From Actinobacteria bacterium HGW-Actinobacteria-2 (GTDB lineage: Bacteria > Actinomycetota > Actinomycetes > Propionibacteriales > Propionibacteriaceae), in the NCBI GenBank assembly GCA_002841335.1, contig PHEY01000006.1:147532-211531 (forward strand): a DNA stretch of 64,000 nucleotides. Direction: 5' to 3'. How positions within the stretch are numbered: position 1 is the first letter of the stretch; every line of letters starts with the position of its first letter. Shown here piece by piece: positions 20,524-34,750 of the stretch. A program made the translations under genes and the position numbers. The notes under the pieces are model-generated. The model did no database searches. It worked only from the letters and a program-made list of their open reading frames with translations, and was not told the origin of the DNA.

Positions 20524-21165
20524 TCAGCGCCGCGGTACCCCGAACAACTGCTGGATCCGCTCCACCTCGTCGGCGGGCAGGTCACGACCACCGCCGACCG
20601 CGTCCAGACGCCAGATGAGCTCGGCGGTGTACTCCAGCCGCTCCATGGTCAGGTAGGCGGCGAAAACGTCGCTGCCCCAGGTGAGAGCGCCATGATTCTC
20701 CAGCAGGCAGGCGGTGTTGTCCGCGATCAGGTCGGTGATCGAATCCGGCACCGCCATGGTGGACGGCGTCGCATACGGCGCCAGCGGAACCCGCGGCAGC
20801 GCCACGATGGTTTCCGGCAACAGCCGGCACTCCAGCGAGCGCCCCTGAATCGCCATCATGGTGGCGAACATCGGGTGGGTGTGAACGACCGCGGTGACCT
20901 GGGGATCCACCTCGTACACCCGAAGATGCATCTTCACCTCCGAAGAGGGGCGGTTCGCGCCGGAGATGATGGTGCCATCCAGGCCCACCACGGTCAGGCC
21001 TTCCGGGGTGAGGAATCCCTTACTCACCCCGGTCGGCGTGCACACGATCTGGTCGCCCACCCGTACGGAGATGTTGCCGTCGTTGGCGGCCACCATGGAG
21101 CGCTGCCACATGGCCCGGCCGACCTCACAGATGGCCAGCCGGGCAGCGTCGAGCCCGTCAGTCAT
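20524..21165 (-). CDS. Class II aldolase (fuculose-/5-deoxyribulose-phosphate aldolase-like)
   Basis: 213-residue zinc-dependent class II aldolase/adducin protein. GNISVRVGDQIVCTPTGVSKG near the start (residues about 30-50), SEVKMHLRVY with the catalytic Glu, the metal ligands in VVHTHP and the later His in LLENHGALTWG match FucA/DrdA-type enzymes that release DHAP from a ketose 1-phosphate. ATG 21165 overlaps the lsrF stop by 8 nt; an in-frame GTG at 21171 is possible. It is the last gene of the leftward operon. Given MtnA and MtnK across the regulator, 5-deoxyribulose 1-phosphate or methylthioribulose 1-phosphate is a likely substrate. MtnB is the same fold, but the SEVKMHL and ENHG patterns favour an aldolase. 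Confidence 0.88.
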   Translation of the reverse strand: MTDGLDAARLAICEVGRAMWQRSMVAANDGNISVRVGDQIVCTPTGVSKGFLTPEGLTVVGLDGTIISGANRPSSEVKMHLRVYEVDPQVTAVVHTHPMFATMMAIQGRSLECRLLPETIVALPRVPLAPYATPSTMAVPDSITDLIADNTACLLENHGALTWGSDVFAAYLTMERLEYTAELIWRLDAVGGGRDLPADEVERIQQLFGVPRR

Positions 21166-22042
21166 CGGCACCGTTCGACAGCTCCAGGTAGAGCTGATGG
21201 GCCTGGCCAGCCGACAAAGAGTCGTGGACGATCCCGCGCACGGCCTGGATCATCGCGACCGGATCCTTGCGCTGGAAGATGTTGCGTCCCATGTCGACCC
21301 CGGCCGCACCGGCGTCGATCGCGTTGAAGGCCATGGTGAGAGCGTCGATGGCAGGCAGCTTCTTGCCGCCGGCCATGATGATCGGCACCGGGCATCCGGC
21401 CACGACCTGATCGAATCCCTCGTCGATGTAGTAGGTCTTCACCATCTGGGCGCCGAACTCGGCGATGATCCGGGTGGCCAGACCGAGGTAGCGGGCGTCA
21501 CGGGTGAGTTCCTTGCCGACCGCGGTCACGCCCAGCACCGGGATGCCGTACTGGTAGCCGGCGTCGATCTGGGCGTTGAGGTTAGCGATCGACTGGGTCT
21601 CGAACTCGCCCCCGATGAACACCTGGACGGCCACCGCGGCCGCGTCGATGCGCGCGGCGTCGGCCATCTCGACCGCCACCCGCTCGTTCGACAGCTCCTT
21701 GAGGATGGACGGCCCGCCACTGGCCCGCAGCACCAGCGCGTTCTTGACCGAGGCGGGAATGTTGGCCCGCAGGATGCCGCGGGTGGCCATCAACGCGTCG
21801 GCGTAGGGCGCCAACGGGACGATGTTCAGATCGATCCGCTCCAGGCCGCTGGTCGGGCCCTGGAAGTAGCCGTGGTCGAAGGCGAGCATGGCGGTGTGGC
21901 CGTCCTCACCGAAGATCCGCGACAGCCGGTGGCGCATGCCGAAGTCGAGTTGACCGGCACCCTTGATGTGGAAGTCCCACGACTTCTGGGGCTGGTCGAG
22001 ACCCCAATCCTTGGCTTGGATGTTGCCTTCTAGATCTGCCAT
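21158..22042 (-). CDS. lsrF: LsrF-type 3-hydroxy-5-phosphonooxypentane-2,4-dione thiolase
   Basis: 294-residue (beta/alpha)8 protein of the LsrF/DhnA class I aldolase family. The N-terminus KDWGLDQPQKSWDF, AFDHGYFQGPTSGLE and the presumed catalytic Lys202 in QMVKTYY (Lys203 in E. coli LsrF) match LsrF closely. LsrF transfers the acetyl end of its substrate to CoA, giving acetyl-CoA and DHAP, in autoinducer-2 breakdown. Here LsrK, LsrG and LsrR are absent and the partners are an aldolase/dehydrogenase fusion and a cupin, so the upstream route must differ. AAAGGAA precedes the ATG. An aldolase activity on another ketose phosphate is an alternative. Confidence 0.9.
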   Translation of the reverse strand: MADLEGNIQAKDWGLDQPQKSWDFHIKGAGQLDFGMRHRLSRIFGEDGHTAMLAFDHGYFQGPTSGLERIDLNIVPLAPYADALMATRGILRANIPASVKNALVLRASGGPSILKELSNERVAVEMADAARIDAAAVAVQVFIGGEFETQSIANLNAQIDAGYQYGIPVLGVTAVGKELTRDARYLGLATRIIAEFGAQMVKTYYIDEGFDQVVAGCPVPIIMAGGKKLPAIDALTMAFNAIDAGAAGVDMGRNIFQRKDPVAMIQAVRGIVHDSLSAGQAHQLYLELSNGADD

Positions 22043-22054
22043 GACGGGTTCCTT

Positions 22055-22441
22055 TCAGTTGGTGGCGTCGGGCACGACGGGTGCCGGATCGCCGGGATGC
22101 CAGGGGAGGTTGATGGTGTCGCCCGGGCTGGCCGGGGACTTGATGAAGACCATCTTGAAAACCTGATCACCGGTGTTGGTGAAGTAGTGCATCTCGCCGG
22201 GCGCGCAGCGGTACACGTCACCGGGAGTGATGGTGAACTGCTCAGCGCAGTCCACCCACAGGGTCGCCGAGCCTTCGACCACCACGAACGACTCGTCGCA
22301 GTGGTGGTGGATGTGGTTAGGCATTTCATCGCCGGGGCGCAGGGTCAGCAGGCCGATATCGCTGGTCGGGCCTTGGATCACATAGGCCGGGCCCCAGTCG
22401 CCGTTGCGCGGCGGTTGGCCGTCCAGTCGTCCTGATTGCAT
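22055..22441 (-). CDS. Single-domain cupin in the sugar-phosphate operon
   Basis: 128-residue cupin. Metal-binding His and Glu residues are seen in NHIHHHCDESFVV (HxH and Glu), with the second motif His in PGEMHYF. The fold suits an isomerase, epimerase or mutarotase acting on small sugars, but also many other roles. It lies between the aldolase/dehydrogenase fusion and lsrF, 12 nt from lsrF, with AGGAG before the ATG. It occupies the operon place that LsrG holds in true lsr systems. Substrate unknown. Confidence 0.85.
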   Translation of the reverse strand: MQSGRLDGQPPRNGDWGPAYVIQGPTSDIGLLTLRPGDEMPNHIHHHCDESFVVVEGSATLWVDCAEQFTITPGDVYRCAPGEMHYFTNTGDQVFKMVFIKSPASPGDTINLPWHPGDPAPVVPDATN

Positions 22442-22468
22442 GGTGTTCTCCTGTTGGTGGGCAGCCGG

Positions 22469-24421
22469 TCAGATGACCCGCTCGTTGCCGCCGTCGATCG
22501 GAATCTGGGCGCCGGTGGTGCAGGCGAAGGATTCGGTGCACAACTGGGTGGCCAGGCGTCCGACGGCGGCGCTGGTGATCTCGGTGTGAAGCAGGTTGCG
22601 GCGCTTGTAGGTCTCGACCGAGACGCCGTAATGCTCGGCTCGGGCCTGCAGCAGTTCGGGGGTCCACAGTCCGGTGTCGAACACGGCATCGGGGTGCACC
22701 ATGTTGACCCGGATGCCCTCGCCGGCCCATTCCAGCGCGGCCACCCGGGTGAGCTGGGTGACCGCCGCCTTGGACGATGAGTAGGCCGCAGCGCCCGGAC
22801 CGGGAGCGGCAACGTTCTTCGATGCGATCAACACCACGCGGCCGTACGGGTAGCCGGCAGCCAGCAGGGGCCGGGCCTGGCCGTACAGCTCCATCACCGA
22901 ATCGACGTTCACCGCCATGGTCTTGCGCCAGGCCGCCGCGCTGAGTTCGCCGAGGTTGGCGCTGGTCGGGAAGATTCCGGCGGCCACCACCAAGATGTCC
23001 AGGCCACCGAAGGTGTCCACCTGGCGGGCCAGGGCGGCGGCCACGGCCTGTGGGTCGGTCACGTCGAGCTGAAGGCCAAGGTAGCGCGGGCTGTCGAAGG
23101 TGTCGGCCACCGAGGCGGACAGATCCCAGCCCACCACGCAGGCACCGGCCTGGAGCAACTGCTCAGCGCAGCCGCGTCCGATGCCGGAGGCGGCTCCGGT
23201 GACCAGCGCCACCTGGCCGGTGAGATCGCCGGCGGTGGCGGTGCGGACGAGCTTCTGCTGCTGGAACAGCCAATACTCCAGGTCGAACACGTGCTCGCGG
23301 TCGGCCGGACGGTACCCGCCTAGGGCGTTGGCGCGCTGGATGGCGGCCATGGTGTGGCGGTAGATCTCGGCCGTGGCGGCAGCCTCCGATGGCGTCCGGC
23401 CGGCGGCGACCAGTCCGAACTCGGCATCCAGGATTACCCGGGGAGCCGGATCGAGTTCGCGCAGCGCAGCGCCGCGTCGATGCTGGTTCGCCTCGAAGTA
23501 GGCGTGGTAGTCGCTGGCGTACTGGTTGAGGTCGCGCCCGATCAGCGGCCACGGCTTGGTCCAGCTGGCGTGGTCGGGGGTGAGGGGTCCGGCCTGGGAG
23601 GCGGCCAGTGCGTCCGGGTTGGCCAGGAACGTCCGCACCGCTGCGGAGTCGTCGCGGCGCAGCACCAAGGCCTGCTGGGCTTGGCGGCAGAGGGCGCCGC
23701 GGAAGGCGGCCAGTTGGGCGGGCTCGACCGGTTCAGCGGGCTCGGCTGGCGGGGGAGGGAAGCCCACCGGGCCGAGCGCCGCTTCGGCCAGCGCCACCAC
23801 CTGCAGATGCCGTTCGAGGGCTTCTGCTGGAGTGTCGCCACCGGTGAACAGGCCGTGGCCCAGCACGACGATTCCGTACTCGTCGCCGTGGCGCTGCGAC
23901 CAGGCCAAGTGACAGGCTGCGACCAGGTCGGGGCCGGGCATCGCGTAGTCGACCACCACGCAGGTAGAGGCCACGGCATCCCGGACGCGCTGGGCTCCGC
24001 CGATGGAGTTGCTCAAGGCCAGCACCGCGTCAGCGTGGGAGTGCAGGACCGCGGCCGACGGCAGCAGGGCGTGCAGCAGGGTTTCCACCGAGGGGTCGGG
24101 GGCGCCGGCGTCGAACAGGGCGCAGCGCAGTTCGCTGTGCAGCCGGTCGTCAGGAACCACTACCGGCGGCAGCAGGCGCTGGACGGCCTTCAGCCGCAGC
24201 GGCGCGAAGCCGGCTTCGGTGATCGTGGCGAGGTCGTGTCCGCTGCCCTTGATGTAGAGCACCTCGACCTGCTCGCCGGTGATGTCGGTCGTGGTGGTCT
24301 TCACCGAGCTGTTACCGCCGCCGTGCAGCACTAACGCTGGGTCTGAGCCGATCACCCGGGAAACCCTGGCGAGTTCGGCGAGGTCGTTGACGGCCTCAGC
24401 TGTGACGGCACTGCCGCTCAT
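22469..24421 (-). CDS. Bifunctional class II aldolase / short-chain dehydrogenase (RhaD/RhaEW-like)
   Basis: 650-residue fusion. Residues 1 to about 375 form a class II aldolase domain (LVLHGGGNSSVKT, metal ligands in LHSHADAVLALSN, and GHGLFTGG). Residues about 385-650 form an SDR domain with TGAASGIG for NAD and the catalytic YSSSK. RhaEW-type enzymes cleave rhamnulose 1-phosphate to DHAP and lactaldehyde and oxidise the aldehyde. No rhamnose kinase or isomerase is present here; MtnK and MtnA take that place. ATG 24421 follows GAGGTG by 5 nt and is preferred over GTG 24427. It is the first gene of the leftward operon. Confidence 0.92.
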   Translation of the reverse strand: MSGSAVTAEAVNDLAELARVSRVIGSDPALVLHGGGNSSVKTTTTDITGEQVEVLYIKGSGHDLATITEAGFAPLRLKAVQRLLPPVVVPDDRLHSELRCALFDAGAPDPSVETLLHALLPSAAVLHSHADAVLALSNSIGGAQRVRDAVASTCVVVDYAMPGPDLVAACHLAWSQRHGDEYGIVVLGHGLFTGGDTPAEALERHLQVVALAEAALGPVGFPPPPAEPAEPVEPAQLAAFRGALCRQAQQALVLRRDDSAAVRTFLANPDALAASQAGPLTPDHASWTKPWPLIGRDLNQYASDYHAYFEANQHRRGAALRELDPAPRVILDAEFGLVAAGRTPSEAAATAEIYRHTMAAIQRANALGGYRPADREHVFDLEYWLFQQQKLVRTATAGDLTGQVALVTGAASGIGRGCAEQLLQAGACVVGWDLSASVADTFDSPRYLGLQLDVTDPQAVAAALARQVDTFGGLDILVVAAGIFPTSANLGELSAAAWRKTMAVNVDSVMELYGQARPLLAAGYPYGRVVLIASKNVAAPGPGAAAYSSSKAAVTQLTRVAALEWAGEGIRVNMVHPDAVFDTGLWTPELLQARAEHYGVSVETYKRRNLLHTEITSAAVGRLATQLCTESFACTTGAQIPIDGGNERVI

Positions 24422-24715
24422 GCGCACACCTCGTTGTGGTCAAACATGTAAGAGAAGTTGTTTTACAAGTTAGCTCGCGGGCCGGAGGGTGTCAACAGCG
24501 CAAGGGGGTCGCGGACGGGGTCTGCGAGGCCTGTTGGGGCGATCTGGACGCCTCAGGGCTGGGCGGGGGCGGTTTTGGCCTGGGCGCCTCCTGAGCCCGG
24601 TGGCGGGAGCCGGTGGTGGGCGCGCGGTCAGGGCGCTGGGCGCTGGCGGGCCGATGGGGTGGAGTTGGCAAGCCGTGGGCGCCTCAGCGCACCCGACGGG
24701 TCAGCAGTGCTGGAA
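24422..24715. promoter_or_regulatory. Leader of the leftward operon with candidate GntR-site
   Basis: 294-nt gap between the GntR gene and the aldolase/dehydrogenase gene. The A/T-rich segment 24441-24472 stands out from the GC-rich rest and holds the symmetrical TTGT-TTT-ACAA at 24458-24468 and the palindrome ACATGT nearby. Both are close to the operon start and could be promoter or operator. The 24480-24700 part is G-rich and shows no gene. Confidence 0.45.
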
Positions 24716-25435
24716 TCAGTTCCCGCTGCGGTAGATGGTGAAGTTGTAACGTCCCTCGATGAAGTAGGTGCGCGAGTACATCAACAACTGGCTGGCGCTG
24801 TCGTAGTGCAGCTGCTTCAGCATCACGAACAGGTGGTGGGCTGGAGCCTCCGGCCCCCAGCCGACGTGCTCGGAGTGCACCGCGTGGACTTCGGCGATGC
24901 CGTGATGTGGATCAACGCCCAGCTGCCCACGGAAGAACCGGAAAAGTGACCCTGACAAGGTGTTCGTGTCGAACTCCTTGGGCAGCAGATCGGCCGGGAT
25001 CAGGTCGTAGGAGTAGGCCATGACCTCACCGTCGGCGGTGATGGTGCGGCGCAGCTCCAAGATCTTGGTGTCGCCGGGCACGCCCATGGTGCTGGCCTCC
25101 TCGGGCAGCACGTGGCGGACCATCCGGCTGTAGTAGACCATCCCCGGAGTGCGGCCCATGGCGCGGATCGAATCGGTGATCGAGTCCAGTCGTTCCAGGC
25201 CCGCTTTGACCGTGGGCTGCTCCACGACGAAGGTGCCCACGCCGTGCTGGGTTCGCACCAGCCCCATGGCCTCCAGCTCGCGCAGGGCGGCACGGATAGT
25301 GGGGCGGGAGACCCCGAATTGCTCAGCCAGCTGGGCTTCCGCCGGGAGGCGAGTGCCTGGTTCGTGGGTACCGACAGAGAGCTCGGTACGAAGATCTTCC
25401 GAGACTCGCGAGACAAGCGTTGCGCGCTGCGCCAT
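24716..25435 (-). CDS. GntR/HutC-family regulator with UTRA domain
   Basis: 239-residue repressor. The winged-helix domain (about residues 1-75) includes EAQLAEQFGVSRPTIRAALREL, and the effector-binding UTRA domain covers about 95-235 with GRTPGMVYYSRM and RRTITADGEVMAYS. The ATG at 25433-25435 is preceded by an excellent AGGAGG; longer in-frame starts lack conservation. It is divergent from mtnA and reads toward the leftward operon, so it probably controls both. HutC-type regulators usually bind a pathway sugar phosphate or related metabolite. Confidence 0.93.
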   Translation of the reverse strand: MAQRATLVSRVSEDLRTELSVGTHEPGTRLPAEAQLAEQFGVSRPTIRAALRELEAMGLVRTQHGVGTFVVEQPTVKAGLERLDSITDSIRAMGRTPGMVYYSRMVRHVLPEEASTMGVPGDTKILELRRTITADGEVMAYSYDLIPADLLPKEFDTNTLSGSLFRFFRGQLGVDPHHGIAEVHAVHSEHVGWGPEAPAHHLFVMLKQLHYDSASQLLMYSRTYFIEGRYNFTIYRSGN

Positions 25436-25475
25436 CAGGAACCTCCTAGTCGGGGATGACCTTACCGCCTCGGAT

Positions 25476-25566: not shown

Positions 25567-26601
25567 ATGGTTCGCGCACTCCACTGGATCAACGACTCTT
25601 CGTTGCTCCGACTCATCGACCAGACTCGCCTTCCCGAGGCGGAGGTCTACCTGGACATCACCACCGTTGACGCGCTGGTGCAGGCGATCAAGGATCTGGC
25701 CGTCCGGGGAGCCCCGGCGTTGGGGGCGGTGGGTGCGCTCGGGGTCGTGGTCGCCATGGAACAGGGGCGCCGCGAAGGTTGGACGGCCCAACGGCTGGCC
25801 GACGAGGTCGACCGGGTGCGGCGGGCGCGTCCCACCGCGGTCAACCTGGCCTGGGGCGTCGATCAGGTCTGGCCGCTGGCCGATCAGGGCATTCCGGCCG
25901 TGCTGGCCCGGGCCGAGGAGATCGTGGTCGAGGACGAGGCGGCCAACCGTCGCCTCTCCGCGCTAGGCGCAGACTGGATCCTGGCTCGCACCGGCAAGCA
26001 GAAGGTGCGCGTGATCACCCACTGCAACACCGGCGCCCTGGCCACCACGGCCTGGGGCACCGCCTACGGCATCATTCATGAGCTTCACGACCGCGGCGCG
26101 CTCGAACTGGTCTACGCCGACGAGACCCGGCCGCTGTTGCAGGGTGCCCGGCTGACCAGCTGGGAACTCGTCCAGGACGGCATTCCGCACGTGGTCGAAG
26201 CCGACGGCGCAGCGTCCAGCACCATCTTGCGTGGGCTGGTCGACGTGGCCATCATCGGCGCCGACCGGATCGCGGCCAACGGCGACAGCGCCAACAAGGT
26301 GGGTTCGGTAGCGCTGGCTTTGGCCGCAGCGCGCGCCGGCATCCCGTTCGTGGTCGCCGCCCCCTCATCGACCCTCGACCTGAGCACTGCCTCAGGGGAG
26401 GACATCGAAATCGAACTCCGTGACGAAGGCGAAGTCCTCAACCTCGGCGGAGTACGTACCACCCCGGTCGAAGCCGTCGGGTTCAACCCGGCCTTCGATG
26501 TCACGCCACACGACCTGATCTCCGCCATCGTGACGGAGTTCGGCGTCGTGGAGCCGGATCGCGATCCGGAACCTCGGCTCCTCGCCCGAATCTCCGGCTA
26601 G
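25567..26601 (+). CDS. mtnA: MtnA-type aldose-1-phosphate isomerase
   Basis: 344-residue enzyme converting S-methyl-5-thioribose 1-phosphate (or 5-deoxyribose 1-phosphate) to the ketose 1-phosphate. Catalytic Cys153 in THCNTGALAT and Asp233 in IIGADRIAANGD are present, and LAVRGAPALG near residue 44 is typical. The family also contains ribose-1,5-bisphosphate isomerase and DrdI; sequence alone does not separate them. First gene of the rightward operon. The rest of methionine salvage (mtnC, mtnD, mtnE-type genes) is not nearby, which favours a DHAP-shunt or deoxysugar role. Confidence 0.93.
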   Translation: MVRALHWINDSSLLRLIDQTRLPEAEVYLDITTVDALVQAIKDLAVRGAPALGAVGALGVVVAMEQGRREGWTAQRLADEVDRVRRARPTAVNLAWGVDQVWPLADQGIPAVLARAEEIVVEDEAANRRLSALGADWILARTGKQKVRVITHCNTGALATTAWGTAYGIIHELHDRGALELVYADETRPLLQGARLTSWELVQDGIPHVVEADGAASSTILRGLVDVAIIGADRIAANGDSANKVGSVALALAAARAGIPFVVAAPSSTLDLSTASGEDIEIELRDEGEVLNLGGVRTTPVEAVGFNPAFDVTPHDLISAIVTEFGVVEPDRDPEPRLLARISG

Positions 26602-26672: not shown

Positions 26673-27776
26673 ATGTTGAGTACGCGTAAGACTGTCGCCG
26701 CAACCATTCTGGGTTTGACCATGGTTACCGCTTCAGCCTGCTCCCAGGGCGGTTCCGCCGCCACCAACAATCCAAATGCCGAGGGCGGCAAGACACAGGC
26801 TGCCACCGCACCGATGCCGGCACCCTTCGACGCGGGCGAAGTGCACGTCGCTATCGTCCAGAACACCGGCCAGGGTGACTACTTCCAGCAGTACCTGAAC
26901 GGGACCAAGCTGCAGGCTGGCGCGCTGAAGATGAAGCTGGATGTCTATGACGCCCAGGGCGACAACGCCACCCAGGCCTCCCAGCTCGACCAGGCCATCG
27001 CCTCGGGAGTCAAGGGCATCATCGTCCGCCACGGCTACGCCGACACCCTGTGCCCCGGCGTGAACAAGGCTCTCAAGGCCGGCATCAAGGTGGTCATCTA
27101 CGACGTGGAGATTCAGAAGTGCTCTCCCGACGCCGTGCAGACCCAGCAGTCCGACGCCAAGATGGCCTCGCTGGTGCTCGACCAGATGGCCACCGACATC
27201 GGCCAGAACAAGCCCGTCGGCTACGTCAACGTGCTGGGCATCGCCCCGCTGGACCGCCGCAACGTGGTCTGGGAGCAGTACAAGAAGACCAACACCTGGA
27301 CCCAGAAGTTCTTCACGGGCAAGTACTCCAGCTCGACGGCGACTGATACAGCGCCTATGGTTTACAACGCTCTTCAGGCCAACAAGGACGTTGTGGCCAT
27401 CTACGCCCCCTACGACGAGCTGACCAAGGCGACGCTCTCCGCGCTCGACCAGGCGAACATGAAGGACAAGGTCAAGGTGTACGGCGCGGATATCTCCACT
27501 GCTGACATCGAGTTGATGACCGCGGCGGGTAGCCCCTGGGTTGCCACCGGCGCCACCGACCCGAACGCCATCGGCGCTGCTGTGACTCGCGTGCTGGCCC
27601 TTGATCTGGCCGGCCAGCTGACCACCAAGAACGTGGAATTTCCCCCGATCCTGGTGACTCAGACGATGCTGCGCGAGAAGAGCATCAAGAACATGGATGA
27701 CCTGCGTGCGGCCGAGCCCTCGCTGAACATCTCCGACACCGCTTCAGCGCCCTGGATCCCCGCGATCAAGTTCTGA
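26673..27776 (+). CDS. Sugar ABC transporter substrate-binding lipoprotein
   Basis: 367-residue periplasmic-binding-protein-like lipoprotein of the RbsB/LsrB class (type 1 fold). The signal peptide ends in the lipobox TASAC (Cys near residue 23), so the mature protein is tethered to the membrane. The domain pattern ASGVKGIIVRHGYADT and YGADIST is like ribose-type binding proteins. It is followed by the ATPase and permease genes. GAAGGGA precedes the ATG. The ligand is inferred from the operon: a deoxy- or methylthio-pentose. Confidence 0.9.
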   Translation: MLSTRKTVAATILGLTMVTASACSQGGSAATNNPNAEGGKTQAATAPMPAPFDAGEVHVAIVQNTGQGDYFQQYLNGTKLQAGALKMKLDVYDAQGDNATQASQLDQAIASGVKGIIVRHGYADTLCPGVNKALKAGIKVVIYDVEIQKCSPDAVQTQQSDAKMASLVLDQMATDIGQNKPVGYVNVLGIAPLDRRNVVWEQYKKTNTWTQKFFTGKYSSSTATDTAPMVYNALQANKDVVAIYAPYDELTKATLSALDQANMKDKVKVYGADISTADIELMTAAGSPWVATGATDPNAIGAAVTRVLALDLAGQLTTKNVEFPPILVTQTMLREKSIKNMDDLRAAEPSLNISDTASAPWIPAIKF

Positions 27777-27828
27777 AGCCTCTCACAGACCCACGACTCC
27801 AGGGCGAACCCGGGAAGGAAGCAGACCA

Positions 27829-29361
27829 ATGACAAGCGAGCATGCCAAACCGCGGTACGCCCTGGAGTTGCGTGGGATCGAGAAGTCCTTTGGGGCCAAC
27901 CAGGTCCTCAAGGGCGTGACCCTGGCCCTGGAACCGGGCTGCGTGACCGCGCTGCTCGGTGCCAATGGCGCCGGAAAATCGACTCTGATCAAGATCCTCG
28001 CCGGCGTCTATGAACGCGGCGCCGGCGAGATCCTGGTCTCCGGGGAACCGGTCGAGATCACCTCGCCGCTGAGCGCGGCCCACAACGGGATCCAGACCGT
28101 GCATCAGCGAATCGACGAGAGCATCGTCCCCGGCCTGACCGTGGCGGAGAACCTGTTGTTCGAGGAACTCGTCCAAGGCGGCCTGCCGCCGATCGGGTCG
28201 CTGCGCAAGCTGCTGCCGAAAGCGCGGGCCACCGCCGAGACGCTCAACTTGTCCTGGTCGGATTCCAAGCTGCTCAGCGATGCATTCGAGCTCGGCATCG
28301 CCGACGCCCAGCTGCTGGTGCTGGCCCGGGCCCTGGTGAAGGCACCCAAGGTGCTGGTGCTGGACGAGCCCACCTCCACTCTCTCTCAGGCCGAAGCCGA
28401 GCGGCTGTTCGGGCTGATCGAGAAGATGCGTGACCAAGGCGTCGCCATCTTGTACGTCTCCCATCACCTCAGCGAGATCCAGTCGCTGGCCGACCGCCTG
28501 GTCGTGCTGCGCGACGGCCAGATCAAGGACCGCCAAAGCGCTCCGCTGGACATGGGCAAGGCCGTCCGCTCGATGCTCGGTGAGCAGGTGGCGGTCGAGG
28601 TCGAACAGCTCAACCAGCTTCAGGGCTCGAAGGTTGCCGTTCAGCTCCGCGGGGTGCAGTTGTTGAAGCGCTCCGAGCCGATCGACGTCGACCTCAACTA
28701 CGGCGAAGTGACCGGGGTGGTGGGGTTGCTGGGCGCAGGCAAGTCCGAGCTCGCCCGCGGCATCTTCGGAGTCGACCCGTTCCGCAGCGGCACCATGACA
28801 TTGGACGGCAAACCGTACGCGCCGCAGCGGGCCGGCGATGGTGTGCGCCGACGGATCTACCTGGTGCCGGAGAACCGCGCGGCCGAGGCCATGCTGCCCG
28901 GCTGGAATCTGTCCTCCACGGTGACGCTGCCGTTCATGAACCGGATCACCCGGCTGGGAATGACCAACTTCGGCGCTGAGCGCAAGCTCGCCCGCGAGGT
29001 CATCGAGAACTTCAACGTGGTCACCACCGGCCCCGATCAGGTGGTGGACGCTCTGTCCGGCGGGAACCAACAAAAGGTTGTCGTCGGCCGCTGGATGAGT
29101 GGTGATCCCAAGATCATCCTCATGGACGAACCCTTCCGCGGGGTTGATATCGGGGCCCGCCACGACCTCTCCGGGAAGGCCCGCGACGCTGCGGCTGCCG
29201 GGGCGTGCGTGGTGGTGCTCTCCTCCGACATCGAGGAGATCAGGGAGGTGGCCGACCGGATCCTGGTGATCGTCGAAGGCCACATCACCCTCGACTCCCG
29301 GGCCTCGGAGGTCGACGCGGACCTAATCATGACGAGCATGTCGGAGGTGGCATCACGATGA
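27829..29361 (+). CDS. Sugar ABC transporter ATPase with two nucleotide-binding domains (RbsA-like)
   Basis: 510-residue double ATPase. Domain 1 (about 1-235) has Walker A GANGAGKST and Walker B VLVLDEPTS, but its signature region reads LGIADAQLLVLARAL in place of the usual LSxGQ. Domain 2 (about 255-505) has LLGAGKSE as Walker A and a normal LSGGNQQKV signature. Unequal domains are known in RbsA/LsrA proteins, although here the missing signature is in domain 1. The stop overlaps the permease start by 4 nt. It energises the pentose importer of this operon. Confidence 0.9.
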   Translation: MTSEHAKPRYALELRGIEKSFGANQVLKGVTLALEPGCVTALLGANGAGKSTLIKILAGVYERGAGEILVSGEPVEITSPLSAAHNGIQTVHQRIDESIVPGLTVAENLLFEELVQGGLPPIGSLRKLLPKARATAETLNLSWSDSKLLSDAFELGIADAQLLVLARALVKAPKVLVLDEPTSTLSQAEAERLFGLIEKMRDQGVAILYVSHHLSEIQSLADRLVVLRDGQIKDRQSAPLDMGKAVRSMLGEQVAVEVEQLNQLQGSKVAVQLRGVQLLKRSEPIDVDLNYGEVTGVVGLLGAGKSELARGIFGVDPFRSGTMTLDGKPYAPQRAGDGVRRRIYLVPENRAAEAMLPGWNLSSTVTLPFMNRITRLGMTNFGAERKLAREVIENFNVVTTGPDQVVDALSGGNQQKVVVGRWMSGDPKIILMDEPFRGVDIGARHDLSGKARDAAAAGACVVVLSSDIEEIREVADRILVIVEGHITLDSRASEVDADLIMTSMSEVASR

Positions 29362-30446
29362 CCCAGGCAGTGACCAACAAGACGGGGCAGCAAGCTCCCC
29401 AGCCGAAGCTGATCAAGCAGGCTGCACCGGCGTCAGAGCTGACGCCACTGATGCGGGTGCAGGATGCGGTGGTCAAGTACGGCTTCGTGGCGGTGACCGT
29501 CCTGCTGTTCGTCTACTTCGCCGCCACCGAACCTGCCTTCGCCACGTCCGATTCGCTGTTCGCCATGCTGAAGTACGCCTCGGTGACCGCCATCCTCGGT
29601 CTGGGCATGACCTTCTCGATGGTGGTCGGCGGCATGGACATGTCGATCGGCTCCCAGGCGGGCCTGGCGGTGCAGATGGCCGCCATGACCATGGTGTTCT
29701 ACAACATGAACGGCACCACGGCCGGCCTGGTGGTGGTCGGGGTGGGGATCCTGGTCGGCCTGGTGAACGCCTTCTTGATCGTCTACTGCAAGATCCCTGA
29801 TCTGCTGGCCACCTTGGCCATGATGTTCGTGATCCAGGGCGTCAAGCTGATCCCGGTGGACGGCCAGTCGGTGTCGGCCGGCATGGTGCTGCGCGACGGT
29901 TCGGTGGCACCGGGCAAGTTCACCTCCACCTTCCTGCTGCTCGACCGCGGCACGCTGGGGCCGGTGCCGCTGCCAGTGGTGATCATGCTGGTGCTGGCGC
30001 TGGTGAGCTGGTTCTTCCTGTCCCGTACCAAGTGGGGCCGGTTGATGTACGCCGTGGGCGCCAACCCCGAGGCCGCTCGCCTGTCCGGCGTCCGGGTCGG
30101 CTTCTACCGCGGCCTGGCCTACGTGCTGACCAGCACCTTCGCCTCGGTCGGCGGTCTGATCCTGGTGTCGCGGATCGGCCAAGGCGACGTGAACGCCGGC
30201 TCGTCCAGTCTGTTGGAGGCGGTCGCGGTGGCCCTGGTCGGCACATCCGTCCTGGGGGCGGGCAAGGCAAACGCCTGGGGCACCCTGCTGGGCGCTTTGC
30301 TGGTCGGCATCGTGCTCACCGGCCTGACAATGAAGGGCTTCCAGTACTACTACCAAGACACCGCCAAGGGACTGGTCCTGCTCGTCGCGCTGGTGTTCTC
30401 CTACACCATGTCGCGCAAGAAGGTGCGATATACCCCGGCCACCTGA
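29358..30446 (+). CDS. Sugar ABC transporter permease (RbsC-like)
   Basis: 362-residue membrane protein with about ten helices, of the BPD_transp_2 family. The motif GGMDMSIGSQAGLA, equivalent to the GGIDLSVG segment of RbsC, and AVGANPEAARLSGV in the cytoplasmic coupling loop are diagnostic. ATG 29358 overlaps the ATPase stop (ATGA) and follows GGAGGTGG. A single permease gene implies a homodimer. Confidence 0.92.
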   Translation: MTQAVTNKTGQQAPQPKLIKQAAPASELTPLMRVQDAVVKYGFVAVTVLLFVYFAATEPAFATSDSLFAMLKYASVTAILGLGMTFSMVVGGMDMSIGSQAGLAVQMAAMTMVFYNMNGTTAGLVVVGVGILVGLVNAFLIVYCKIPDLLATLAMMFVIQGVKLIPVDGQSVSAGMVLRDGSVAPGKFTSTFLLLDRGTLGPVPLPVVIMLVLALVSWFFLSRTKWGRLMYAVGANPEAARLSGVRVGFYRGLAYVLTSTFASVGGLILVSRIGQGDVNAGSSSLLEAVAVALVGTSVLGAGKANAWGTLLGALLVGIVLTGLTMKGFQYYYQDTAKGLVLLVALVFSYTMSRKKVRYTPAT

Positions 30447-30489: not shown

Positions 30490-31716
30490 ATGGCTGACTA
30501 CGAATTCCTCACCGAACACACCGTCGCCGACTACATCCGCCAAAACCGGGAACTGTCGGCCCGGATCGATCCCGATCACCTGGCCAGCATCCGCGAGGTG
30601 GGGGACGGCAACCTCAACCTGGTCTTCCTGGCCACCGACGAGGCCGGACGGGGGATGTGCCTGAAGCAGGCCCTTCCCTATGTGCGGATGACCGGCGAGG
30701 GCTGGCCGATGACCCCAGACCGGGCCCGCCACGAGGTGGAGTCGTTGCAGGCTCACCACCAGCTCACCCCGGAGCTGCTTCCCGAGGTCTACCTCTACGA
30801 CCCCAGCCGCTACATCATCGCCATGGAGGACCTCTCCGATCATCAGGTGTGGCGCGGCTCGCTGATCGCCGGTGAGCGCAAGGAGGGTGCGGCCGAGGCC
30901 GTGGGCACCTACGTTGGCGCACTGGCCTTCGGCACCTCGGCCTTCGCGATGGAGCGCGAGGCTCTGGCTGAAGCCGTGGCGCGGGCGGTCAACGCCCAGT
31001 TGTGCACCATCACCGAAGACCTGGTGTTCACCGAGCCGGTGGCCGGCGCCGAGCGCAACTCCTTCCTGGCCGCCAACGCTCCCGACGTGGCCGAGTTCCA
31101 GGCCGATCCGGCCGTCTGGCAGGGCATGGGCTACGCCAAGTGGATCTTCATGACCAAGGCCGAGGCGCTGATTCACGGCGACCTGCACACCGGCTCGGTG
31201 ATGGTCCGCTCGGCGGCGGGCAGCGACGTGTGTGACAGCGTCAAAGCCTTCGATTCCGAGTTCGCGTTCTACGGCCCGCTGGCCTTCGATCTGGGGGCGT
31301 TGTTCGCCAACTACGTGGTCGCGGCGGCGCGGGCTGTCGCCCTCGGCGAGGACGACCGGGCGCACTGGTGCCTGAGGTTGATCGAGCAGACCTGGACCGG
31401 TTTCGAGGCTGAGTTCCGCCGCCGGTGGCCGACGCGTCGCGATCCGCGGGTCTGGGGCGATGAGTTCCTCGACGAGTTGCTGGCCACCTGGCGCAGCGAG
31501 GCGTGGCTGTTCGCCGCGGCCAAGATGTCTCGACGGATCATCGGTGCGGCCAAGACCCGCGACATCGAGTCGCTGCCGGAGAACCTTCGCGAAGGTGCGG
31601 CCCGCGGTGTCCTGCGGGTGTCGCGTCGCCTCCTGGTCGAACGTCACCTCGACTCCAGCCCGGCCCGGTTCGTGGCGTTGGCCGAGCCCATCCTGCGCGA
31701 CGCGCGCACTGTCTGA
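30490..31716 (+). CDS. mtnK: MtnK-type 5-methylthioribose / 5-deoxyribose kinase
   Basis: 408-residue kinase with a protein-kinase-like (APH) fold that phosphorylates the anomeric hydroxyl of methylthioribose. The nucleotide loop GDGNLNLVF at 38-46, the Lys in CLKQALPYVR, the catalytic LIHGDLHTGSVMV and the metal site in DSEFAFYGP all match MtnK. HGDLHTGS is particularly diagnostic. Activity on 5-deoxyribose is known for some family members. Placed directly after the importer, it should trap the incoming sugar as a 1-phosphate for MtnA. Confidence 0.93.
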   Translation: MADYEFLTEHTVADYIRQNRELSARIDPDHLASIREVGDGNLNLVFLATDEAGRGMCLKQALPYVRMTGEGWPMTPDRARHEVESLQAHHQLTPELLPEVYLYDPSRYIIAMEDLSDHQVWRGSLIAGERKEGAAEAVGTYVGALAFGTSAFAMEREALAEAVARAVNAQLCTITEDLVFTEPVAGAERNSFLAANAPDVAEFQADPAVWQGMGYAKWIFMTKAEALIHGDLHTGSVMVRSAAGSDVCDSVKAFDSEFAFYGPLAFDLGALFANYVVAAARAVALGEDDRAHWCLRLIEQTWTGFEAEFRRRWPTRRDPRVWGDEFLDELLATWRSEAWLFAAAKMSRRIIGAAKTRDIESLPENLREGAARGVLRVSRRLLVERHLDSSPARFVALAEPILRDARTV

Positions 31717-31728
31717 GGACGGGTCGGC

Positions 31729-32151
31729 GTGCTGAAGGGAATCGATCCGCTGCTGGTGCCCGACCTGCTCGCTGAGCTGGCCCGGATGGGGCACGGCGAC
31801 ACGGTGGCCCTGGTGGACCGCAACTTTCCGGCCCACAGCCACGCACGCACGGTGATCGAGCTACCTCAAGCCGACGTGCAGCAGGCATTGGCGGCGCTAC
31901 TCAGCGTCCTACCGCTGGATCGCTATGACGCACCGGCGGTGGTGCACATGCTCACCGATGAGGGAGCCGAGTCCCCGGCCACCCCTGCTGCCCGCGAACT
32001 GTGGCGTGCGGTAGAGGGCTTCGAGGTGAGCGAGGCCGGTGTCGATCGCCACGTCCAGTTCTACGAGCTGTCCCGAGCTGCCCGGGTGACGGTGCGAACC
32101 GGCGAGACCCTGCCGTACGCCTGCTATCTGCTGACCAAGGGGACGCTGTAG
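31729..32151 (+). CDS. RbsD/FucU-family sugar mutarotase
   Basis: 140-residue protein of the RbsD/FucU family, which interconverts anomers or ring forms of sugars. LARMGHGDTVALVDRNFPA near the N-terminus (with the catalytic His) and HMLTDE match the family. The GTG start at 31729 lies 12 nt after the mtnK stop. It would supply MtnK or ribokinase with the correct ring form. Ribose, fucose and 5-deoxyribose cannot be separated by sequence. Confidence 0.9.
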   Translation: MLKGIDPLLVPDLLAELARMGHGDTVALVDRNFPAHSHARTVIELPQADVQQALAALLSVLPLDRYDAPAVVHMLTDEGAESPATPAARELWRAVEGFEVSEAGVDRHVQFYELSRAARVTVRTGETLPYACYLLTKGTL

Positions 32152-32195
32152 TCCCTGCAGGTGTGTCGGCTTCCCATCGAGAAGGAGTTACTCAC

Positions 32196-33191
32196 GTGCG
32201 CAAGATCATCAACGACCCGCAGGACTTCGTCGATGAGGTCATCGACGGGCTGCTGCTGGCCCACCCCGATCACCTCAGGGCCGTGGACGCGGACCGGCGC
32301 GTGCTGGCCACCACCACCGTGGTGCCGAATCAGGTGGGTATCGTCACCGGCGGCGGCTCGGGCCACCTGCCGCTGTTCCTGGGGTATGTAGGCCAGGGGC
32401 TGTGCACCGCGGTGGCTATCGGCAACGTGTTCTCCTCCCCGTCGGCGGAGCAGATGGCTGCGGCGATCACGGCCGCCGACGCCGGCGCCGGGGTGCTGTG
32501 CCTGTACGGCAACTACGGCGGCGACGTGCTGAACTTCGATCTCGCCTGCGATCTGGTCGATGGGGTCCAGACCGCCACCGTACTGGGGGTCGACGATGTG
32601 CTTTCTGCGCCGAAGCAGCGGGCTGACACCCGCCGCGGGGTGGCCGGCCTGGTCTTCGCCTACAAGGTGGCCGGTGCCGCTGCGGCCCGGGGAGCGTCGC
32701 TGGCTGAAGTGACCGAGGTGGCCCGCCGGGCCACGGCCGCGACCGGGACGGCCGGAGTCGGCCTGTCGCCGACGATCCTGCCCGCCGCCGGCAAGCCCAC
32801 TTTCACCCTGGCCGAGGGCGAAATGGAGATCGGGATCGGTATCCACGGAGAGCCCGGACGCCAGCGCGGCCCGCTGCAGACCGCCGACGAGATCACCGAA
32901 ATGCTGATCCGTCCGGTTCTGGAAGACCTGGAGATCACGGCAGGCGATCGAGTGGCGGTGCTGGTCAACGGACTGGGCTCCACTCCCGCCGAAGAGCTCT
33001 ACCTGATCTACCGCAAGGCGGCCCAACTCCTGGCCGAAGCCGGGGTGAGTATCGCGCGCCGCTACATCGGCGAGTACGCCACCAGCCTGGAAATGGCCGG
33101 GGCCTCGCTGAGCCTGCTGCGCCTGGACGACGAACTGCTGACTCTGCTCGACGCGCCGGCGTTCTCGCCGCTGGTCAGCTTCGGAGGCTGA
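32196..33191 (+). CDS. dhaK: DhaK-like kinase subunit, divergent substrate site
   Basis: 331-residue DhaK-family subunit. The His that binds the carbonyl covalently is His217 in GIGIHGEPG. The first substrate loop reads GGGSGHLPLFLGYVG, whereas canonical dihydroxyacetone kinases have GHEPxH there; the Glu and second His are replaced by Leu and Phe. The metal/nucleotide side GNYGGDVLNF is kept. This suggests a substrate other than dihydroxyacetone, such as a tetrulose or deoxyketose. GTG 32196 follows GAAGGAG and is preferred over the longer frame. The pair with DhaL lies 2 nt downstream; no PTS-type DhaM gene is present, so ATP is the likely donor. Confidence 0.88.
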   Translation: MRKIINDPQDFVDEVIDGLLLAHPDHLRAVDADRRVLATTTVVPNQVGIVTGGGSGHLPLFLGYVGQGLCTAVAIGNVFSSPSAEQMAAAITAADAGAGVLCLYGNYGGDVLNFDLACDLVDGVQTATVLGVDDVLSAPKQRADTRRGVAGLVFAYKVAGAAAARGASLAEVTEVARRATAATGTAGVGLSPTILPAAGKPTFTLAEGEMEIGIGIHGEPGRQRGPLQTADEITEMLIRPVLEDLEITAGDRVAVLVNGLGSTPAEELYLIYRKAAQLLAEAGVSIARRYIGEYATSLEMAGASLSLLRLDDELLTLLDAPAFSPLVSFGG

Positions 33192-33193
33192 CC

Positions 33194-33814
33194 ATGCTGG
33201 TCGGCGAGCTGAAGACGGTCCTGGCTGCAGCCTTGCAGGCGCTGGCCACCCACTCCGACGAGTTGCGCGACCTGGACGCGGCCCTGGGCGACGGCGATCT
33301 GGGGATCACGGTACGGGCCGGTTCGCTGGCCGCCGTCGAGGCTTTGGCCACCAGCGACAGCGACGATGCCGCCGAGGTGCTCAAGGCGGCGGGTCGGGCG
33401 TTCGCAGCGGCGAACCCGTCCACCTTCAGCGCGCTGGTGGGCGGCGGACTGATGGCAGCGGCGTCCCCGCTGGCCGGACGTGACCACCTGGACACCGAAG
33501 CCGCCCTCGCCTTCGGACGCGCCGCTGCCGAGCGCATTCATCAGCGCGGCAAGGCCGAGCTGGGTGACAAGACCCTGCTGGACGCGCTGCTGCCGAGTCT
33601 TGACGTGCTGGCGACCGCGTCCGGAAGTGCGGCCGAGCGCTGCCGGGTGATGGCCACCGAGGCCGATCGGTGCGTGGCCGCCAGCCGCGAGTGGGAGTCC
33701 AAGCGGGGCCGCGCCGGCTGGCTCGGCGAGCGCAGCATCGGCCAGATCGATGCCGGAGCCCGCGCGTACGCGCTGTTCTTGGCCGAGTTCGCAGCAGCCC
33801 TGGAGCGGTCATGA
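33194..33814 (+). CDS. dhaL: DhaL-like ADP/ATP-binding kinase subunit
   Basis: 206-residue DhaL-family subunit. Three metal-binding Asp residues are seen in DAALGDGDLG; the His normally following GDGD is Leu here. NPSTFSALVGGGLMAAAS is close to the nucleotide-binding glycines of DhaL. It starts 2 nt after the dhaK stop and should form the active kinase with it. Changes in both subunits at matching places support co-evolution toward a different substrate. Confidence 0.88.
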   Translation: MLVGELKTVLAAALQALATHSDELRDLDAALGDGDLGITVRAGSLAAVEALATSDSDDAAEVLKAAGRAFAAANPSTFSALVGGGLMAAASPLAGRDHLDTEAALAFGRAAAERIHQRGKAELGDKTLLDALLPSLDVLATASGSAAERCRVMATEADRCVAASREWESKRGRAGWLGERSIGQIDAGARAYALFLAEFAAALERS

Positions 33815-33859
33815 GTGCGGTGCTTGACCACCCCGACGCCCCCGTGTTGGGTTGGCCGC

Positions 33860-34750
33860 ATGTCTGCTGAACTGATCGTGCTGGGAAGCGCCAACATGGA
33901 CCTGGTCGTCAAGTTGACGCGCCACCCGGCGCCCGGCGAGACCGTGTTCGGCGACTCGCTGACCACTGTCGCCGGCGGTAAGGGACTCAACCAAGCCGTG
34001 GCCGGTGCCCGCGCCGGGGCGCCGGTGCGCTTCGTCGGCGCTGTCGGGCGCGACGAGTTCGGGCAGCGCCTAGTGGCCGGCCTGCGTGCCGAGGGTATCG
34101 ACACCACCGGCGTCCAGCAGGTCGACCAGCCCACCGGGACCGCCCACATCAGCGTCGATCGCGCCGGGCAGAACAGCATCGTGGTGGTCTCCGGCGCCAA
34201 CGCCAGCCTCACCCCGCAGGTGTTGGACGGCCTCGAACCCGGTGCGGCCGAGTGGTTGTTGACCCAGCTGGAAGTGCCCCTGGACACCGTGGCCGCAGCG
34301 CTGGACTGGTGCCACCACCACGGTGTGCGGGCGGTGCTGACCCCGGCACCGGTGCTCACCTTGGACGCGTCGTTGTTGGCGAAGGTCGACCTGCTGGTGC
34401 CCAACGAGTTCGAGGCCTGCCAGCTGGCCGGCTTGGACGACCCCCAACAGGCCGCGCTCGCGTTGAGCCGGTCGTGTCGCGACGTGGTGGTCACCCTCGG
34501 TTCGCGCGGCTCGGTGTGGGCCACCGACGGCGAGCTCCGCCACCGGCAACCGGCCCTCACCGTGGCTGCGGTGGACACCACCGCAGCCGGGGACACCTTT
34601 GTGGGGCTGTTGGTCACTCAGCTGTCGCAGGGAGCGACGATGCCGCAGGCCATGGAGTGGGCGGCCGCGGGCGCGGCGATCAGCGTGAGCCGAGCCGGAG
34701 CGTCGGCGTCCATGCCGACCCGGGCCGAGATCGACGCCTTGCTGGCCTGA
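33860..34750 (+). CDS. rbsK: Ribokinase (PfkB family)
   Basis: 296-residue PfkB sugar kinase. Signature one is in AGGKGLNQAVAGARAG and signature two in DTTAAGDTF, both as in RbsK, with the substrate-binding NMD (residues 11-13). ATG 33860 is chosen because the family begins there. Last gene of the rightward operon. It would phosphorylate ribose at O5 if ribose enters through the same importer; 5-deoxyribose has no O5 hydroxyl, so this enzyme must serve another sugar or position. The stop abuts the convergent proline dehydrogenase gene. Confidence 0.88.
   Translation: MSAELIVLGSANMDLVVKLTRHPAPGETVFGDSLTTVAGGKGLNQAVAGARAGAPVRFVGAVGRDEFGQRLVAGLRAEGIDTTGVQQVDQPTGTAHISVDRAGQNSIVVVSGANASLTPQVLDGLEPGAAEWLLTQLEVPLDTVAAALDWCHHHGVRAVLTPAPVLTLDASLLAKVDLLVPNEFEACQLAGLDDPQQAALALSRSCRDVVVTLGSRGSVWATDGELRHRQPALTVAAVDTTAAGDTFVGLLVTQLSQGATMPQAMEWAAAGAAISVSRAGASASMPTRAEIDALLA

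Follow-up and report, generated by a model that had tools for sequence, protein, structure and literature searches.

A possible oxidative, thiolytic variant of 5-deoxyribose salvage in an actinobacterial cluster that joins an aldolase/dehydrogenase fusion to LsrF

The window analysed here, a 64-kb stretch of contig PHEY01000006.1 from Actinobacteria bacterium HGW-Actinobacteria-2, contains a sugar-catabolic gene cluster in which a class II aldolase/short-chain dehydrogenase (SDR) fusion lies close to a predicted LsrF, a member of the enzyme family that completes the breakdown of autoinducer-2 (AI-2) in the Lsr pathway. In our judgement the chances are about even that this cluster encodes an oxidative, thiolytic variant of 5-deoxyribose salvage. 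The cluster would import and degrade 5-deoxyribose, perhaps 5-methylthioribose too; an MtnK-type kinase would form the 1-phosphate, which an MtnA-type isomerase would convert to the 1-phospho-ketose. Oxidation of the C4 hydroxyl with nicotinamide adenine dinucleotide (NAD+) by the SDR half of the fusion would then give 3-hydroxy-5-phosphonooxypentane-2,4-dione, whose acetyl group LsrF would pass to coenzyme A (CoA), with formation of acetyl-CoA and dihydroxyacetone phosphate (DHAP). Gene content and active-site residues were read directly; from them we infer which sugar is used, in what order the steps run, which cofactor serves and that CoA receives the acetyl group. Such a route would unite two pathways held separate, namely the salvage of a by-product of radical S-adenosylmethionine enzymes and the breakdown of the AI-2 signal. 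It would also recover acetyl-CoA from 5-deoxyribose with no free acetaldehyde, account for LsrF genes outside AI-2 operons and render testable the reaction order of the whole class of aldolase/dehydrogenase fusions.

The chemistry of the proposed junction is straightforward. 5-Deoxyribulose 1-phosphate is CH3-CHOH-CHOH-CO-CH2OP, and oxidation of its C4 hydroxyl gives CH3-CO-CHOH-CO-CH2OP, the substrate named in the family model NF006081; the chemical identity on which the original prediction was built, that this oxidation product is the LsrF substrate, is therefore correct. The two genes that it had named are both present at the positions claimed and both exceed their family cut-offs. Specifically, the window LsrF scores 453.9 bits against NF006081 (3-hydroxy-5-phosphonooxypentane-2,4-dione thiolase; cut-off 297), is the sole match in its genome at E <= 1e-5, and aligns over its full length to 3gkf, the LsrF of E. 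coli, whose Schiff-base lysine it retains. It keeps Lys203, the phosphate-site His58, Gly226, Gly227, Gly253 and Arg254 (E. coli numbering); Lys203 is the Schiff-base lysine and the ligand and phosphate-site roles are likewise published (PMC2728841). Across the LsrF tree considered below, the ligand residues and the lysine are invariant wherever a letter exists, except for the variable D251 and M252 of the same numbering. All ten LsrF proteins scored exceed the cut-off of the thiolase family and fall short of those for the aldolase and the ADH synthase, and those of the fusion loci L027, L050, L055 and L099 exceed the LsrF cut-off. The products expected of LsrF and CoA, DHAP and acetyl-CoA, agree with what is stated for the E. 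coli enzyme (PMC7828210, PMC8016206, both citing Marques 2014).

The fusion is composed of Pfam Aldolase_II and adh_short domains, the SDR half extending approximately over residues 399-652, and matches NF006196 (bifunctional aldolase/short-chain dehydrogenase, PRK08324.2-4) with 855.4 bits against a cut-off of 831, over residues 10-652 and both domains. Against TIGR02632 (RhaD_aldol-ADH) it scores 379.4 bits, under the cut-off of 567.75, and it is 32-36% identical to the fusions of same-order genomes outside the close set. Active sites, compared initially in six close fusions, were then followed in 83: the best 80 of 564 relatives, two loci of the genus and the window. In the SDR half, all 83 fusions have N507, Y549, K553 and an NAD-type D435, with Ser or Thr at position 536; the catalytic roles of these residues, as well as the catalytic and metal roles in the aldolase half discussed below, are those known for these families. 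On this pattern of residues, the SDR half is proposed as a candidate 5-deoxyribulose 1-phosphate C4 dehydrogenase.

The association of the two genes is recurrent. Fusion loci were taken from the same best 80 of 564 relatives, many of them stopping at contig ends, and their genes were called by codon usage and named by similarity, longest-open-reading-frame calling having given shadow genes in GC-rich loci. LsrF occurs in 16 of these 80 loci and a cupin in 10, while MtnA is found in 36, MtnK in 17, an MtnP cluster in 7, and any of these three in 39. Within the genus, a fusion of at least 50% identity is encoded in 7 of 29 genomes, with LsrF in the same cluster in 7 of 7 (in one of them, G003, the fusion is divided between two contigs). 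Moreover, LsrF adjoins the fusion outside the window type, in an Acidimicrobiia locus (L050), in Chloroflexota (L055, L065, L069, L075) and in a planctomycete (L099). The linkage, recurring in the genus and in other phyla, is more than chance. In a quick tree of 81 fusions (18 labelled with LsrF, 41 without, and 22 rows near contig ends uncounted), well-supported branches carry at least 5 changes in LsrF adjacency, which implies that the association arose or disappeared repeatedly.

Further evidence comes from LsrF genes considered irrespective of the fusion. A search of three phyla gave 40 of 396 for Actinomycetota, 18 of 251 for Chloroflexota and 33 of 199 for Planctomycetota; one of the class of G498 (Gammaproteobacteria), made without positive control, gave 0 of 229. 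Counting as neighbours genes on the same strand and within 3 kb, the 91 LsrF loci (L139-L178, L211-L227, L248-L281) show a zinc dehydrogenase beside LsrF in 58 cases, a fusion in 7, a free SDR in 1 and neither in 25. The zinc enzyme accompanies LsrF at 29 of 40 loci in Actinomycetota, 10 of 17 in Chloroflexota and 19 of 34 in Planctomycetota. The one member scanned, from L154, is nearest to threonine, scyllo-inosose and galactitol-1-phosphate dehydrogenases, with none above cut-off, and to sorbitol dehydrogenase in the PDB, AdhP being more distant than the threonine and polyol dehydrogenases. An EPL motif is present in 19 of 23 full-length Actinomycetota zinc dehydrogenases; a scripted cofactor-motif pattern matched 0 of 23, and an NAD-type Asp was seen by eye in two sequences. 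As an observation in its own right, LsrF and the zinc polyol-type dehydrogenase form a conserved two-gene pair that is mostly remote from MtnA.

The two dehydrogenase partners appear to exclude each other. When 80 of 90 LsrF genomes were searched for the fusion, with at most 15 first-look candidates scored per genome, 57 held the zinc dehydrogenase within 3 kb of LsrF and no full fusion, 9 the full fusion only, 0 both and 14 neither. All nine fusions lie in the LsrF cluster, although in G560 the distance is about 7 kb, with MtnK between, and other fusion subfamilies are represented among them (NF006194 at L140; 38-39% identity in G560 and G1037). A third arrangement is seen in G1156, where a 304-residue SDR, 51% identical to the window SDR half, stands 67 bases from LsrF; its best family match is confined to positions 408-657 of the fusion model (347.9 bits), and when that genome was searched with the whole fusion this SDR was the sole match (E <= 1e-20, with 15 of 25 first-look candidates scored). 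In a quick LsrF tree of 113 rows, the fusion-linked label requires 8 changes, at least 6 of them on well-supported branches, and L050 with L099, together with seven Chloroflexota rows, is nested inside a large, well-supported set linked to the zinc enzyme. (The tree flags long branches; the zinc label of L281 rests on a weak opposite-strand match, and L144 carried the lsr label solely for its identical LsrF.) With fusion-linked rows nested among zinc-enzyme-linked ones, this part of the tree shows a single LsrF lineage exchanging its partner between fusion and zinc enzyme. The simplest account of such an exchange is that the partner supplies the oxidation and LsrF cleaves the product. By analogy, the SDR half of the window fusion may act as the zinc enzyme does, with oxidation first.

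Gene order at some zinc-enzyme loci points in the same direction. At L154, AhcY, LsrF, the zinc dehydrogenase and MtnA are consecutive, with gaps of at most 20 bases; L153 and L166 have the same row together with a purine nucleoside phosphorylase-type gene, and at L215 AhcY, MtnP and MtnA adjoin the pair on the opposite strand. Two aldolase queries found no class II aldolase match at these four loci (E <= 1e-10, locus only). Their gene sets can be read as a path from a nucleoside to 5-deoxyribose 1-phosphate, ketose, diketone, and finally acetyl-CoA and DHAP. With the zinc enzyme in an MtnA row and no aldolase at the locus, oxidation would precede cleavage, unless an aldolase is located elsewhere. 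In addition, among the 14 genomes with neither partner, three loci (L142, L145, L149) have LsrF in an lsr-like setting, beside genes for an FGGY kinase, a regulator of the SorC type, and an ATPase with two permeases. At L145 the kinase is partial and is matched best by the AI-2 kinase model (469.4 bits for the portion available; cut-off 528), and the regulator scores 183.7 bits against LsrR (cut-off 486). No zinc-enzyme or fusion match was found at these three loci, as expected if the substrate there is already oxidised.

Taken more broadly, these patterns would fit a widespread oxidative route for salvaging 5-deoxy sugars: a dehydrogenase, whether a fused SDR, a free SDR or the zinc enzyme, would make the AI-2-type diketone from a ketose 1-phosphate, and LsrF would capture the acetyl group as acetyl-CoA. 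We regard this generalisation as tentative and put it somewhat short of an even chance. On the main reading, RhaEW-like fusions would oxidise and then cleave: alone they would give the acid, and with LsrF the acyl group would be kept as a thioester. On the wider one, LsrF would serve chiefly in salvage in these phyla, with oxidation ahead of cleavage in RhaEW-type fusions at large. RhaEW of C. aurantiacus forms no DHAP when NAD+ is absent, from which its authors infer that the aldolase depends on the dehydrogenase (PMC3870299); this behaviour fits oxidation before cleavage.

Several observations weigh against the oxidative reading. The aldolase half of the fusion has, by its sequence, not decayed: E115, H129, H131 and H191 are present in 83 of 83 fusions, and the retention of aldolase and SDR residues is independent of a nearby LsrF (19 fusions with, 64 without). 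A degenerate aldolase half, considered as a sign of lost function, was consequently rejected, and this outcome speaks against a simple oxidation-only reading. True LsrF (E < 1e-80) is encoded in only 9 of 49 genomes that stand behind 50 fusion loci (next to the fusion in 5, at a contig end in 1 and in another place in 3), and 40 of the 49 are without it. This sample is an unfair one, weighted to LsrF-less loci, as 45 of the 50 were pre-selected without nearby LsrF. Among those 40 genomes, 39 give no match at E <= 1e-30 and one gives a weak match (33% identity, E 1.2e-31). Some LsrF-less fusion loci hold MtnA, and a few also MtnP. In other words, the fusion can work without LsrF. Moreover, G470, G488 and G496 have both fusion and LsrF, but apart. 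As regards the zinc enzyme, a class II aldolase-like gene (26-30% identity) lies near the pair at L212, L254 and L271, and MtnA is near the pair at 4 of 58 loci only. Genome-wide, MtnA is found in 36 of 40 zinc-enzyme/LsrF genomes (picked from 57) and in 29 of 40 LsrF-less controls, which contain no Actinomycetota, a difference that is not significant (p = 0.083). The Fisher p of 3.5e-6 for the exclusion is made too small by the relatedness of the genomes. The aldolase-less SDR is a single case near a contig start, with none in 16 other genomes of its order. L224, whose AI-2 kinase reaches 621 bits (cut-off 528), also encodes SDRs in the orientation of LsrF, at a distance of about 2.8 kb or more, and is thus no clean AI-2 control; several others of the 14 genomes with neither partner hold a DhaK-type kinase. 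Finally, the window LsrF is outside the zinc-enzyme-linked set, in the other half of the tree, where its set comprises 16 rows linked to the fusion, 5 linked to DhaK and 5 labelled lsr, besides the free-SDR row and a few more, so that the exchange argument covers the window only by analogy. It is on account of this position, the three aldolase-neighboured zinc loci and the one unclean AI-2 control that we lowered our confidence slightly, to an even level, and likewise that in the wider generalisation.

The strongest rival, unlikely in our estimate, is that the aldol cleavage comes first: the aldolase half, or the small aldolase encoded after LsrF, would release DHAP and acetaldehyde, the SDR half would oxidise the latter to acetate in keeping with the name given to RhaEW, and LsrF would be otherwise employed. 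It draws on the intact metal site and on the searched fusion genomes without LsrF, and it has published counterparts. RhaEW is described as an aldolase plus lactaldehyde dehydrogenase (PMC3870299), DrdA is an aldolase releasing acetaldehyde (PMC6079011), and the 5-deoxyribose route already described has DHAP and acetaldehyde as its end products (PMC6079011, PMC10986504). That route, the DrdKIA/DHAP shunt, also uses an MtnK-type kinase and an MtnA-type isomerase on 5-deoxyribose and yields DHAP (PMC6079011, PMC10986504), but there a class II aldolase gives acetaldehyde, whereas here a dehydrogenase and LsrF are proposed to give acetyl-CoA. RhaEW shares the two-domain architecture, with NAD+ use published for it and proposed for the window fusion; the latter differs in falling below the TIGR02632 cut-off, in its MtnA/MtnK context and in its LsrF partner. 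Aldol cleavage first leaves unexplained why LsrF joined the fusion in several lineages, why LsrF has either the fusion or an unrelated dehydrogenase as its neighbour but not both, and why RhaEW gives no DHAP without NAD+ (PMC3870299). The proposal that the SDR domain feeds LsrF gains from the zinc-dehydrogenase/LsrF pairs in three phyla, the MtnA rows and the lone SDR, while the competing view set beside it in the original prediction still stands, drawing on the intact aldolase half and the LsrF-less genomes and weakened by exclusion and exchange. In the open literature, covered in part through best-ranked matches only, no paper was found that links LsrF to MtnA or to 5-deoxyribose salvage.

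A somewhat less probable alternative retains the oxidative, thiolytic chemistry and changes the sugar: another ketose 1-phosphate, derived for instance from 5-methylthioribose or some other deoxy sugar, would be processed, 5-deoxyribose not being the main substrate. DrdK accepts 5-methylthioribose too (PMC6079011). In the same genus, L033 (3436-14767) has the fusion-cupin-LsrF core with no MtnA or MtnK seen; instead it has a DhaK-type kinase, an RpiB-type isomerase, and triose-phosphate isomerase-like and ketose-bisphosphate aldolase-like proteins, and a different sugar may enter the same terminal route there. L027 (4923-10964), again with no MtnA or MtnK seen, has LsrF, a protein resembling flavin adenine dinucleotide (FAD) glycerol-3-phosphate dehydrogenase, an FGGY kinase and the fusion in consecutive order, a set that would suit a deoxy-polyol. 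Against a general change of sugar, MtnA and MtnK flank the module in the window and in L030-L032, L035-L037, L041, L049 and L086.

Two further roles for LsrF appear improbable. As a plain class I aldolase it would split the ketose phosphate into DHAP and acetaldehyde, with the neighbouring dehydrogenase handling the acetaldehyde; its class I aldolase fold and binding of ribose and ribulose 5-phosphate (PMC2728841) suit this role, but the family scores given above favour the thiolase, the scored zinc enzyme is not nearest to AdhP, and the fusion already contains an aldolase half. Marginally less probable still is the degradation of phospho-AI-2 imported through the ATP-binding cassette (ABC) transporter of the cluster, a role suggested by LsrF family membership and by the tree half shared with lsr-type LsrF; the best AI-2 kinase match in the window genome attains 122.9 bits against a cut-off of 528 (a weak test, as 0 of 14 control genomes passed either), no LsrG is found among the ten window proteins scanned, and by reading there is one permease, not two. 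AI-2 catabolism is thus held unlikely as the role of the window LsrF, the lsr operon structure being absent as well. With respect to the Lsr pathway (LsrK, LsrG, LsrF), the proposed route would share the last enzyme family and, if right, the last intermediate and products; it differs in that the window is without an AI-2 kinase above cut-off or a recognised LsrG, and in that a sugar phosphate would be oxidised to yield the diketone.

Table 1. Features of the cluster; positions were checked from the list of open reading frames (ORFs) of the window, and families are from NCBIfam and Pfam scans
Feature	Position	Strand	Basis
Small class II aldolase, FucA/DrdA superfamily	20524-21171	-	Pfam Aldolase_II
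LsrF-type CoA-dependent thiolase (predicted), class I aldolase fold	21158-22042	-	294 amino acids; NF006081, 3gkf alignment
Cupin	22055-22441	-	Pfam Cupin_2; motifs H-x-H-x4-E and GE-x-H
Class II aldolase/SDR fusion	22469-24427	-	652 amino acids; in-frame ATG at 24421; NF006196
GntR/UTRA regulator, divergent promoter region	24716-25471	-	Pfam GntR and UTRA
MtnA, (methylthio/deoxy)ribose 1-phosphate isomerase	25567-26601	+	TIGR00512, 384.6 > 279 bits
Sugar ABC transporter (binding protein, ATPase, one permease)	26673-30446	+	ORFs, named by sequence reading
MtnK, (methylthio/deoxy)ribose kinase	30490-31716	+	TIGR01767, 366.3 > 275 bits
RbsD/FucU-type sugar mutarotase	31729-32151	+	PF05025, 97.7 bits
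DhaK, DhaL (DhaL by reading), ribokinase-like gene	32181-34750	+	End of plus-strand operon

The cluster is divergent (Table 1). In reading order, the minus strand carries the GntR regulator, fusion, cupin, LsrF and small class II aldolase, and the plus strand MtnA, the ABC transporter, MtnK, the FucU-type mutarotase, DhaK, DhaL and the ribokinase-like gene; an MtnK-type kinase is thereby paired with an MtnA-type isomerase, each above its own NCBIfam cut-off. The ABC transporter genes are a block conserved in relatives, and DhaK and DhaL recur in L031 and L032. Two PF01048 nucleoside phosphorylase/nucleosidase proteins are encoded in the genome of the window, one of which resembles MtnN at its start. 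Two genes were absent from the original prediction, the cupin between fusion and LsrF and the class II aldolase after LsrF. The latter has fuculose phosphate aldolases among its best PDB matches, and 0 of 25 NCBIfam rows shown attain the cut-off; it is a possible parallel, acetaldehyde-forming aldol branch.

The cupin motifs H-x-H-x4-E and GE-x-H are conserved in an alignment of 11 relatives, the metal motif being intact, and the substrate could be the diketone or an isomer thereof. Nine of the 10 cupin-bearing loci among the 80 fusion loci also have LsrF, and the tenth, L049, stops at a contig end. Cupin loci comprise the window, L026, L030-L033, L035-L037, L048, L049, L086 and L189; in L189 the cupin is beside LsrF, and the fusion is not on that short contig. 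At L060 (4138-9900), two distinct MtnA-like genes bracket the fusion and MtnK. Five Planctomycetota loci (L269, L274-L277) have LsrF near a DhaK-type kinase gene. LsrF adjoins a ribulose-phosphate 3-epimerase-like gene at L140 and L221 (by family scan) and at L223 and L224 (by reading), an arrangement reminiscent of lsrE of Salmonella.

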